DNA from: Leisingera sp. ANG-M7 | GTDB taxonomy: Bacteria > Pseudomonadota > Alphaproteobacteria > Rhodobacterales > Rhodobacteraceae | Direction: 5' to 3' | Assembly: GCF_000813965.1 (NCBI RefSeq) | Contig: NZ_JWLI01000006.1 | Span: 248,001 to 312,000 of the forward strand | DNA: 64,000 nucleotides | In this document: piece after piece, positions 10,234-13,616 of the stretch | Layout: the number at the start of each line of letters is the position of its first letter | Numbering within the stretch: the first letter of the stretch is position 1 | Notes under the pieces: generated by a model | What the model saw: the letters and a program-made list of their open reading frames with translations, nothing else | Told to the model about the DNA's origin: nothing | Database searches by the model: none | Program-made: the position numbers and the translations under genes

Positions 10234-10264
10234 GTTGCGCACCCACCGTACGCACCCCTGCCCA
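10234..10264. promoter_or_regulatory. GTA operator A (dyad, repeated before g3)
   Basis: The core at 10236-10254 is TGCGCAC-N5-GTACGCA, a dyad with one mismatch. The 31-bp block matches the block at 12245-12275 at 27 positions. The dyad centre is about 60 bp before the transcription start expected from the adjacent promoter, the usual place for an activator. Identity of the protein is not visible; the known GTA activator GafA is one candidate. Confidence 0.65.
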
Positions 10265-10270
10265 GGAACC

Positions 10271-10299
10271 TTGACTTTTCCACGGAAAACACGTATAGG
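10271..10299 (+). promoter_or_regulatory. GTA cluster promoter (Pg1)
   Basis: TTGACT, exactly 17 bp, then TATAGG: a near-consensus sigma-70 promoter on the GTA strand. It starts 7 bp after operator A. Confidence 0.7.
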
Positions 10300-10402
10300 T
10301 AGTGGTGCAGCTGGAAGAAACATGGACGGCCCCGGACCCCTCCGCCGGCGGCCGTCCTGTCTTTCTCTCGTGCGGACAAAAGCGCATGAGGTAGAGCAAA
10401 TC

Positions 10403-10795
10403 ATGACAGACCAATCGCCAGGCCCGGAACCGGGCCAGACACCCCTTCAGGACGGGGGCGCCCTCCTGAAGCGGCAGGTGCATTACACCGCCAATCTTCT
10501 GCAATCCCTGCAGGAGAGCATATACCGCCTGCGAAATGAGGCGGAGGAGCTACGGGAGCAGCTCGAAACCAACGGGGCCGATGAAACAACCGGCACCAAG
10601 GGGCAGGTCAGCCGTCTGGATCAGCTGATCCGCGAATGCCAGAAAGTGGAGAGACTCCTTGCAGAACAAAGCACCGAATTCGCCCGCATGCTCAAATCCG
10701 AACACGAACTCGATCCCGTCGCGGCGCGCGCAGCTGTCGAGCTCGGACTTTCTCGCCTGCGTGCCGCCCTCGATCCTGAGCTTGTTCTTGAATGA
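10403..10795 (+). CDS. GTA small terminase subunit (g1)
   Basis: This 130-aa protein is first in the GTA cluster, where R. capsulatus has g1, the TerS that recognises DNA and works with the large terminase in headful packaging. It has a Pro-rich N-terminus, then a long helical region (about 28-105) compatible with a TerS oligomerisation coiled coil. In this family it lacks a classical DNA-binding motif. The ATG at 10403 was chosen over upstream in-frame codons because MTDQSPGPEPG marks the start of a sensible protein and lies just downstream of the promoter leader. It overlaps the start of g2. Confidence 0.82.
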   Translation: MTDQSPGPEPGQTPLQDGGALLKRQVHYTANLLQSLQESIYRLRNEAEELREQLETNGADETTGTKGQVSRLDQLIRECQKVERLLAEQSTEFARMLKSEHELDPVAARAAVELGLSRLRAALDPELVLE

Positions 10796-12074
10796 GCTGG
10801 ACCGCAAAACCCTCTGTGCGCTGCCGCATCTGTTCGACATCTGGGCGCTGGACCACCAGCGCCCGCCGCCCGGCGATTGGCGCGCCTGGGTGATCCTGGG
10901 TGGCCGCGGTGCCGGCAAGACGCGGGCAGGGGCCGAATGGGTCCGTTCCCTGGCCGAAGGGGCCAGCCCCTATGATCCCGGTACCGCGCGGCGCATCGCA
11001 CTGGTGGCCGAAACCTATGACCAGGTGCGCGACGTGATGATCCACGGCGACAGCGGAATCCTGGCCTGCTCGCCGCCGGACCGCCGCCCCAAGTGGAAAG
11101 CGTCAGAGCGCAAGCTGATCTGGCCCAACGGCGCCGAAGCACAGGCGTTTTCCGCCCACGACCCCGAGGCCCTGCGCGGCCCCCAGTTCGACGCCGCCTG
11201 GGCGGATGAGCTGGCCAAGTGGCGCAAAGGCCAGGAGAGCTGGGACATGCTGCAGTTTGCGCTGCGGCTGGGGCAGGACCCCCGCGTCTGCGTCACCACC
11301 ACGCCCCGCAACGCGCCCGTCCTGAAACGGCTGCTGGCCTCGCCCAGCACCGTCACCACCCACGCTGCGACTGAGGCCAACCGCGCCAACCTCGCGCCGT
11401 CCTTCCTGACAGAAGTGCGCGCGCGCTATGCGGGCACCCGGCTGGGCCGGCAGGAACTGGACGGGGTGATGCTCTCGGACATCCAGGGCGCGCTCTGGAC
11501 CACCGCAGCGCTGGTGGATGCACAGGTGGCTGAGGCACCGCCTCTGGACCGGATTGTGGTTGCCGTCGATCCGGCCGTCAGCGCCGGCAAGAACTCAGAC
11601 GCCTGCGGCATCGTCGTGGCGGGCGCCGTCACCCAGGGCCCGCCGCAGGACTGGCAGGCCTATGTGCTGGCGGATTGCACCGTGCAGGGCGCCGGCCCGC
11701 TCGCCTGGGCGCAGGCGGTGATCGCCACCCGCGACCGCTTTGGCGCCGAACGGGTGGTGGCAGAGGTCAACCAGGGCGGCGCGCTGGTCGAAACCGTGCT
11801 GCGCCAGGCCGACCCGCTGGTGCCGTTCCGCGCGCTCCACGCCCGCAAGGGCAAATCCGCCCGCGCCGAACCGGTGGCCGCGCTCTATGAGCAGGGCCGG
11901 GTGCATCACCTGCCGGGGCTGGGAGAGCTGGAGGACCAGATGTGCCAGATGACCCCGCAGGGCTACCGCGGCAGCGGCTCGCCCGACCGGGTCGATGCGC
12001 TGGTCTGGGCGCTGCATGAGCTGATCATCCAGCCCGCCGCCAACCTGCGCAGGCCGCAGGTCAGGGTGCTGTAG
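10761..12074 (+). CDS. GTA large terminase (g2), packaging ATPase/nuclease
   Basis: This protein of about 437 aa packages host DNA into GTA heads. Counting from the GTG at 10761, Walker A is GGRGAGKT (47-54), the Walker B acid pair Asp-Glu is at 149-150 in AWADELAKW, and the C-terminal RNase H-like nuclease shows VAVDPAVSAGKNSDA and DRVDALVWAL. No ATG fits; the ATG at 10659 lies deep in g1 and adds non-family residues. The GTG (or a TTG at 10782/10788) is therefore proposed. It overlaps g1 by about 35 nt, which suggests coupling. Confidence 0.93.
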   Translation: MPPSILSLFLNELDRKTLCALPHLFDIWALDHQRPPPGDWRAWVILGGRGAGKTRAGAEWVRSLAEGASPYDPGTARRIALVAETYDQVRDVMIHGDSGILACSPPDRRPKWKASERKLIWPNGAEAQAFSAHDPEALRGPQFDAAWADELAKWRKGQESWDMLQFALRLGQDPRVCVTTTPRNAPVLKRLLASPSTVTTHAATEANRANLAPSFLTEVRARYAGTRLGRQELDGVMLSDIQGALWTTAALVDAQVAEAPPLDRIVVAVDPAVSAGKNSDACGIVVAGAVTQGPPQDWQAYVLADCTVQGAGPLAWAQAVIATRDRFGAERVVAEVNQGGALVETVLRQADPLVPFRALHARKGKSARAEPVAALYEQGRVHHLPGLGELEDQMCQMTPQGYRGSGSPDRVDALVWALHELIIQPAANLRRPQVRVL

Positions 12075-12094
12075 AACCTCTCAACCAACCAACC

Positions 12095-12178
12095 GCCCGG
12101 CGGCACGCCGGGCAGCGCCCGTCCCGCCCCACACCGGGCGGGCGCTTCGCGTCCACCCCGCCGGGACGGGCGCTGCCC
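12095..12178. repeat. REP-like hairpin and large inverted repeat after g2
   Basis: GCCCGGCG-GCA-CGCCGGGC at 12095-12113 is a perfect hairpin. Arms GGGCAGCGCCCGTCCC (12110-12125) and its exact reverse complement (12163-12178) form a larger stem. The first unit is almost the same as the hairpin inside g14 (20687-20704). Confidence 0.75.
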
Positions 12179-12244
12179 TCAGTGTGATGCAACACTGTAT
12201 TGTTTCCTTTGTATTCGTTTAATTTCAATAGTTTATATTCAGGT

Positions 12245-12275
12245 GTTGCGTACCCACCGTACGCACCGCTTGCCA
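12245..12275. promoter_or_regulatory. GTA operator B (perfect dyad) before g3
   Basis: The core at 12247-12265 is a perfect dyad TGCGTAC-N5-GTACGCA, with the same 5-nt centre (CCACC) as operator A. It lies 96 bp before the g3 ATG. The promoter at matching distance is poor (TTCAGG near 12280, TAATCC near 12301), so any start here would need an activator. Confidence 0.6.
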
Positions 12276-12371
12276 AATCTTCAGGCCTTTGGGGCACTAA
12301 TAATCCTCAGCAAAGGCGCACCAGTCCCAAGGGCCGGCAGCGCCACCTACGAACAACCTGAGGAGCGGACC

Positions 12372-13616
12372 ATGGTCTTTGACCTGCTGCGGCGCAAAAC
12401 GCCAGACCCCCAGAAATCAGGCCCCCTGAAACCGGGCCCCAATACTCCGGGCCTGGAACAGAAGACCAGCCAGACCGCCCGCGTGGTCTCCTGGCACGGC
12501 GCCGGCCGCATCGCCTGGAGCCCGCGCGACACCGTCTCGCTGACCCGCAGCGGCTTTGCCGGCAATCCGGTCACCCACCGGGTGATCCGCCTCATTGCCG
12601 AGGCCGCAGCCGCGGTGCCGCTGGTCCTGCAGGACAGCCGCCAGCGCTTTGACACCCACCCCTGGCTGGCGCTGCTGGCCCGTCCCAATCCGGCCCAGAC
12701 CCAGGCCGAGATGCTGGAGGCGCTCTATGGCCACCTGCTCCTCTCCGGCAACGCCTATATCGAGATGGTCACGGCAGAAGACGCAACCCCTGCAGAACTG
12801 CACGTGCTGCGCTCCGACCGGATGAACGTGGTGCCGGGGCCGGACGGCTGGCCTGCGGGTTTTGACTATGTGGTGGGCGGGCGCAAGCACCGCTTCGCCA
12901 ACGAGCCCGGCAATTCCCCGGTCTGCCATATCAAAAGCTTCCACCCGCAGGACGACCACTACGGCCTCTCACCCCTGCAGTCGGCGGCGATGGCCATTGA
13001 TGTCCACAACGCCGCCTCCCGCTGGTCCAAGGCGCTGCTGGACAACGCAGCCCGCCCCTCCGGCGCGCTGGTCTGGACCGGATCCGACGGCCAGGGGCAG
13101 ATGTCCGACGATCAATTCCGTAACCTAAGTGACCAGATCCAAACAAATTTCCAGGGTGCCCAGAATGCCGGCCGTCCGATGGTGCTGGAGGGCGGATTGG
13201 ACTGGAAACCGATGGGCTTCTCCCCCTCGGACATGGAATTCCAGAAAACCAAGGACACCGCCGCCCGCGAAATTGCGCTGGCCTTCGGGGTGCCGCCGAT
13301 GCTGATCGGCATCCCCGGCGATGCGACCTATGCCAACTACCAGGAGGCCAACCGCGCCTTCTACCGGCTGACCGTGCTGCCGCTGGTCTCCAAGGTCACC
13401 GCTGCGCTGTCCGGCTGGCTCACCGCCTGGACCGGCGAGGCGCTGACGTTGAAGCCCGACCTCGACCAGCTGCCAGCGCTCGCGGCAGAGCGCGAGGCGC
13501 AGTGGCGGCGCATCACCTCCGCGGATTTCCTCACACCCGCGGAGAAGCGGCGTCTGCTGGGGTTGCCCACAGAAACCCTGCCCACAGAGCAGACGGAGGG
13601 CGGACAGGATGACTGA
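12372..13616 (+). CDS. GTA portal protein (g3), HK97 family
   Basis: This 414-aa protein forms the dodecameric ring through which DNA enters the head. It has the HK97-type portal features: a Lys/Arg/Pro-rich N-terminus, VTHRVIRLIAEAAAAVPL, NAYIEMV, HIKSFHPQDDHYGLSPLQSA, and the C-terminal GVPPMLIGIPGDATYANYQEA. The ATG follows AGGAG at good spacing; upstream in-frame codons run through the regulatory dyad and are excluded. It is preceded by the structured spacer and overlaps g3.5 by 8 nt. Confidence 0.95.
   Translation: MVFDLLRRKTPDPQKSGPLKPGPNTPGLEQKTSQTARVVSWHGAGRIAWSPRDTVSLTRSGFAGNPVTHRVIRLIAEAAAAVPLVLQDSRQRFDTHPWLALLARPNPAQTQAEMLEALYGHLLLSGNAYIEMVTAEDATPAELHVLRSDRMNVVPGPDGWPAGFDYVVGGRKHRFANEPGNSPVCHIKSFHPQDDHYGLSPLQSAAMAIDVHNAASRWSKALLDNAARPSGALVWTGSDGQGQMSDDQFRNLSDQIQTNFQGAQNAGRPMVLEGGLDWKPMGFSPSDMEFQKTKDTAAREIALAFGVPPMLIGIPGDATYANYQEANRAFYRLTVLPLVSKVTAALSGWLTAWTGEALTLKPDLDQLPALAAEREAQWRRITSADFLTPAEKRRLLGLPTETLPTEQTEGGQDD

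Follow-up and report, generated by a model that had tools for sequence, protein, structure and literature searches.

An oriented repeat before g1 and g3 of a Leisingera GTA cluster as a candidate activator site of a proposed wider GTA regulon

The window, a stretch of 64,000 nucleotides from Leisingera sp. ANG-M7, carries on its forward strand the first genes of a GTA cluster, viz., g1 at the small-terminase position, g2 for the large terminase and g3 for the portal (Table 1). The closest named GTA relatives of this genome (4.58 Mb) belong to Leisingera, with portal identities of up to 97%. A search of phage records with the GTA large terminase matched 333 records, none at ≥60% identity. Another large terminase of the genome, with 51% identity to g2 (G000:C1:309677-310834, minus strand), is perhaps part of a prophage. 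The initial annotation described a 31-bp repeat before g1 and again before g3, and a direct reading of the window confirms that the two copies are identical at 27 of 31 positions. The near-consensus promoter TTGACT-N17-TATAGG, said to lie beside the first copy, is likewise present as described; a 22-mer within that copy ends 14 bp upstream of TTGACT, and the centre of its dyad, at 10245, falls at about -61 from a start near 10306, in agreement with the proposed placement about 60 bp before the start. A sigma-70 promoter scan of the window did not include this promoter among those it listed. An alignment of the g1 upstream regions of 18 of 21 genomes of the genus, from which three regions with 10-11 mismatches to the 22-mer were left out, reveals the conserved pattern TTGACttttN..cGTAtAgGT.

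Table 1. Coordinates of the features around g1-g3 in the window and of the 195-nt elements elsewhere in the genome
Feature	Position	Strand	Description
First copy of the 31-bp repeat, before GTA g1	10234-10264	+	GTTGCGCACCCACCGTACGCACCCCTGCCCA
Parts of the g1 copy	22-mer 10235-10256; dyad 10236-10254; core 10245-10254	+	imperfect dyad; core ACCGTACGCA
g1 promoter TTGACT-N17-TATAGG	10271-10299	+	TTGACT 10271-10276, TATAGG 10294-10299, read in the sequence
GTA g1, small-terminase position	10403-10795	+	no Pfam match
GTA g2, large terminase	10800-12074	+	Terminase_6N, Terminase_6C; part from 10800 used, start codon provisional
g2-g3 gap, 297 bp	12075-12371	+	GC-rich inverted repeats; one weak terminator-like hairpin, 12180-12197
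Second copy of the 31-bp repeat, before GTA g3	12245-12275	+	GTTGCGTACCCACCGTACGCACCGCTTGCCA
Parts of the g3 copy	22-mer 12246-12267; dyad 12247-12265; core 12256-12265	+	perfect dyad; core ACCGTACGCA
ATCTTCAG and -10-like TAATAA after the g3 copy	12277-12303	+	ATCTTCAG 12277-12284, TAATAA 12298-12303; conserved, 21 genomes aligned
GTA g3, portal	12372-13616	+	Phage_portal E 9.4e-91
195-nt element L024	G000:C23:21787-21981	-	
195-nt element L027	C8:164611-164806	-	
195-nt element L029	C5:139942-140133	-	
195-nt element L030	C8:21737-21933	+	

The repeat was originally viewed as a dyad, TGCGTAC-N5-GTACGCA, which is perfect in the g3 copy and has one mismatch in the g1 copy. Within the window alone, a loose form of the dyad has 4 matches at ≤3 mismatches, which is not significant against a shuffle mean of 2.0 with 15 of 100 shuffles reaching 4. 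The symmetric 7-N5-7 dyad was not retained as the conserved unit: across the aligned genus genomes GTTGCG and CGTACG stay constant, but the left arm and the centre of the dyad are variable. The conserved unit is the oriented element GTTGCG-N6-(A/S)CGTACG, and its deeply shared core is a 10-bp palindrome, ACCGTACGGT (here ACCGTACGCA).

The exact pattern GTTGCG-N7-CGTACG occurs at 15 places in the genome as against one for the reversed control, and at 185 as against 13 when the tabulated counts of the 21 genus genomes are summed. With one mismatch allowed, the genome has 34 places compared with 25 for the control, which is near background. The 22-mer TTGCGCACCCACCGTACGCACC occurs at ≤3 mismatches at 10 places in the genome (one for the reversed control), and at ≤2 mismatches in 16 of the 21 genus genomes and in none of 40 others; 20 of the listed 22-mer places were fetched for inspection. 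Thus, across whole genomes, the motif is found outside GTA genes as well, with ten of the 15 exact sites preceding non-coding-looking elements, and it is kept at g1 and g3 of related clusters.

In each of the 21 genus genomes, the g2-g3 gap has its best match to the 22-mer beginning 124-127 bp upstream of g3, with 0-5 mismatches in 20 of them and 7 in one; in the alignment, the conserved stretch ATCTTCAG...tAATgATCCTCAGCAAAG comes after it. For g1, 18 of the 21 genomes have an upstream best match with 0-6 mismatches; the other three have 10-11, and the best-match search finds no recognisable g1 site in them. The motif is therefore retained in related GTA clusters at both places, in counts that come from related genomes which are not independent and that probably include the same strains in more than one of the compared sets, e.g., L059 and G013. 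For the wider family, 80 of 578 relatives were taken, six of which (L059-L064) were treated as Leisingera, L062 bearing another name, and the 74 with both large-terminase and portal matches, the Leisingera-type loci included, were used to count GTTGC-N6..9-CGNACG. This pattern is present just before g3 in 30 of the 74 loci, always on the coding strand, and before g1 with nine matches on the coding strand and one on the other, as against four matches in all other sequence of these loci. The g3 site could not be found in the family loci of several genera.

Nine further loci (L160-L168) were added and 75 g1 and 83 g3 regions were extracted, while matrix scoring outside Leisingera covered 69 g1, 75 g3 and 30 lysis regions, the last being the loci returned by a holin search that found the holin in 50 of 61 genomes. 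The best unsupervised 10-mer upstream of the -35 in the 69 non-Leisingera g1 regions is AcCGtaCGgT, and the best match to the core lies mostly at -37/-38 or -26 from TTGAC, positions about one helix turn apart, of which the Leisingera-type g1 sites use -26. A second copy, GCGNACG, is located inside the -35/-10 gap in 22 of the 69 regions, at offset 8 in every case (mononucleotide shuffles gave at most 2), and in none of the six Leisingera-type loci. The strongest longer motif upstream of the core in these 69 regions is a CtrA-like or IHF-like box, gTTAAgaaTTtGTTAA. With a matrix trained on g1, p≤0.05 is attained outside Leisingera by 25 of the 75 g3 gaps (50 fall short) and by 13 of the 30 lysis upstreams (17 fall short). 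A simple core expression, compared with dinucleotide shuffles, matches 18 of the 69 g1 upstreams outside Leisingera (shuffle mean 1.2, maximum 7), 28 of the 76 g3 gaps (mean 4.0, maximum 9) and 13 of the 30 lysis upstreams (mean 1.9, maximum 7). The core was not recovered by unsupervised motif searches of the g3 and lysis regions, in which the motifs were ribosome-binding, Ruegeria-dominated or upstream coding ones.

The 15 exact sites of the genome lie at g1, g3, the GTA endolysin-holin genes, a DUF2793/Peptidase_G2 gene, a BrnA-like gene and the ten non-coding-looking elements. At the lysis genes, 60 bp separate the 22-mer from the start of the endolysin gene, and the holin matches GTA_holin_3TM with an E-value of 2.5e-27. 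The element precedes the GTA lysis genes in all four Leisingera genomes inspected, with 5-7 mismatches to the 22-mer, and the lysis and g3 elements can be aligned in register through ATCTTmaG to a TAATGA/TATGAG box. Unlike g1, neither the g3 nor the lysis box has a canonical -35, and the g3 box lacks canonical sigma-70 spacing as well; we regard these -10-like boxes as putative promoters. The start of the spike-like gene lies 94 bases on from the first base of its site, and its product matches DUF2793 (E 1e-27) and Peptidase_G2 (E 3.7e-30); phage appendage and tail-spike chaperone chains are further matches of the Peptidase_G2 part. The BrnA-like antitoxin gene (L026, 1047-1409, minus strand; BrnA_antitoxin E 3e-12) is 91 bp downstream of a site at 1501-1522 on the same strand. 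Thus, the repeat looks like a real regulatory site shared by several parts of the GTA.

The g2-g3 gap measures 554-1255 bp in 16 loci named Ruegeria or Silicibacter (e.g., L079, L081, L082, L084 and L108). Inserts lengthen the gap in these loci, and CGTACG or a near form of it, with GTTGC, still adjoins g3 in them; the gap is short in two further Ruegeria loci, and another one lacks a large-terminase match. By matrix, the best match in the long-gap loci is the site at -89 or -93 in 14 of 16, with p≤0.05 in only 4 of 16, and in L084 and L091 another stretch outscores the site. Of the 73 named g2-g3 gaps, 37 have terminator-like hairpins (as against a mean of 13.2 and a maximum of 18 in shuffles), some of these hairpins being the core palindrome itself (L071, L072) or lying in long inserts. 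So do 12 of the 21 genus gaps (mean 1.4 and maximum 4 in shuffles), where the hairpins begin upstream of the site, at -180 to -185. The gap in the window has only a weak hairpin, and in Tateyamaria-type loci a hairpin adjoins g3 and no recognised site is found there. Of the second regulated start at g3 proposed in the initial annotation, the conserved site is borne out, and the start itself is likely because the site stays beside g3 across long gaps and hairpins are found in many gaps. An alternative, which we find improbable, is that the g3 copy serves as a loading site for an antitermination complex, as with Caulobacter GafZ, so that polymerase from g1 runs on into g3. The accessible part of PMC11150451 describes passage of an early terminator by GafZ, and the hairpins in many gaps would suit such a role, but the genus site lies downstream of the hairpin and is followed by a -10-like box, and the same element precedes stand-alone lysis genes.

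Among the non-coding-looking elements, one of 195 nt is present in exactly four copies, which are 93-98% identical to the query copy and each lie about 45 nt downstream of an exact site. Fourteen copies from the genus share one consensus fold of -81.3 kcal/mol with a covariation term of only -0.39; 4 of its 55 pairs are changed on both sides with pairing kept, and the covariation support is therefore modest. The RNA alignments consisted of 12, 14, 14 and 11 hand-chosen sequences. A model of the element, searched against 100 family genomes, one per genus, recovered all four copies and gave a further weak match in the same genome (E 0.0033), downstream of a site near the ribosomal protein L15 gene. 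One other genome has two matches (E 4e-11 and 9e-5), which follow GTTGCGGCCCCTCCGCACGCC and GTTGCGACCCCAGCGCCCGCC in the same layout of site and element, and another has one doubtful match (E 0.003) with no such site by eye. Between places, members of a second structured type (L022, L280, L281, L283 and L287) share 59-64% identity; five of the pairs have changes on both sides and some others are broken. These members lie near genes for ribosomal protein L15, trpF/trpB and others. The elements at C1:362816 and C1:549190 share a 3' palindrome, CGGCGGCGCCGCC. Some elements, e.g., those before trpB and rplO, point towards a gene and could be its leader instead of a separate RNA. At the gathering score, Rfam found no family at the ten site loci L021-L030. 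From their sequences, the four 195-nt elements constitute a candidate small-RNA family that may be linked to the GTA.

The four near-identical 195-nt elements raise the question of whether all copies of the site are remnants of an interspersed intergenic repeat devoid of GTA function. In favour of this, seven of the nine non-GTA places fetched from the congener G007 lie in intergenic flanks shared with this genome. Flanks are shared at five of six other places in G012 as well, and the copies have a fixed gene context, which speaks against such a repeat. The GTA copies lack the 195-nt body, which occurs in only 2 of 99 genomes of other genera, whereas the g3 copy is fixed in all 21 genus genomes and is found in other genera too. 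We therefore disfavour this explanation and consider it very improbable.

Based on these observations, we propose that the repeat is a candidate activator site of the GTA regulon, most likely for GafA, and that the g3 copy gives the head and tail genes their own start; we put the probability of this reading at roughly 0.6. That GafA is the likeliest protein at the repeat is our inference from comparison with Rhodobacter capsulatus, and activation instead of repression, as well as a start before g3, are suggested by the arrangement of the sites. According to the accessible portions of the published accounts, R. capsulatus GafA-C binds a fragment spanning the -35, the -10 and the start of the GTA promoter, and GafA(1-86) binds specifically to fragments on both sides of the -35/-10, its shifts at gafA being non-specific (PMC9638019). 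The same portions report that GafA binds the lysis promoter (PMC6363796) and, at 50-100 bp upstream of the start, the tspA promoter (PMC13420450). It is also reported, in the part of the literature available, to bind its own gafA promoter, with autoregulation independent of the N-terminal part. The gafA gene (DUF6456) is present in the genome under study, and no copy of the site at ≤7 mismatches was found around its domain match (L170), in a stretch that extends about 1.5 kb in both directions. This could be explained by the reported N-terminal-independent autoregulation, and would also be expected if a different protein used the site.

A stationary-phase, cell-cycle or repressor protein might thus own the site and control both the GTA and the small RNAs, with GafA acting at other bases of the same promoters. 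Most sites in the genome are not at GTA genes and none is at gafA, TTAACC-like half-sites lie downstream of several copies, and putative CtrA half-sites are reported at late GTA loci in the part of PMC9638019 available. We nevertheless hold this to be rather unlikely, since, across the family, the element is present at g1, g3 and lysis genes, for which the accessible literature names GafA as the sole direct activator, and since its places fit the fragments bound by GafA-N and GafA-C.

If GafA, or an activator like it, recognises the oriented site, it would aid a normal promoter at g1 from its upstream position, and at g3, the lysis genes and the RNA-like elements the bound activator would compensate for the absent -35. 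As the -10-like boxes at g3 and lysis lack a good -35, they would be expected to need the bound activator for transcription. The hairpins upstream of the g3 site imply that g3 may be restarted after termination in the gap, and an own start would set capsid output apart from that of the terminases g1-g2. A bolder extension, to which we give somewhat less than even odds, is that the regulon of the GTA activator includes about ten structured small RNAs, whose promoter element is shared with g1, g3, the lysis genes and the spike gene, with the head genes having their own activator-dependent start after the terminases. If so, a burst of regulatory RNAs would be tied to GTA production, and the RNA-like elements may take part in GTA production or release. 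The motif thus represents a testable candidate GafA site and predicts that a cluster generally depicted as a single operon has a further promoter, and the candidate regulon of this genome could be listed from sequence alone.

Among known systems, the GafA regulon of R. capsulatus is similar in having activator sites at the g1 promoter, lysis and tail-spike genes, and a gafA gene is found here too (accessible parts of PMC6363796, PMC13420450 and PMC9638019); two DNA-binding parts that act on and around the -35/-10 (PMC9638019, as accessible) are a further likeness. It differs in that the accessible main texts, supplements aside, describe no site motif or g3 promoter for R. capsulatus, whereas the present genome lacks a site at gafA and has ten RNA-like targets. 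Putative GafA sites are cited there to a supplementary figure of PMC9638019, and the motif may already be drawn in it. CtrA promoters may resemble the present ones in the TTAACC-like half-sites that, by eye, follow several copies and in a TTAA-N-TTAA-like box upstream of g1 in other genera, but the dyad and core are not CtrA sites, and, according to the available text, the GTA promoter of R. capsulatus was not bound by CtrA. The Caulobacter GTA, with GafYZ, IHF and terGTA, likewise has an activator site upstream and a further site lying between the -35 and the -10, and about 20 bound genome regions are described for it in the accessible part of PMC11150451. Its cluster has an early terminator, of which the terminator-like hairpins in many g2-g3 gaps may be a counterpart. 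There, however, the GafY site lies at -123 to -113 with IHF in between, and the early terminator is passed by antitermination, whereas the Leisingera cluster has an extra element before g3.
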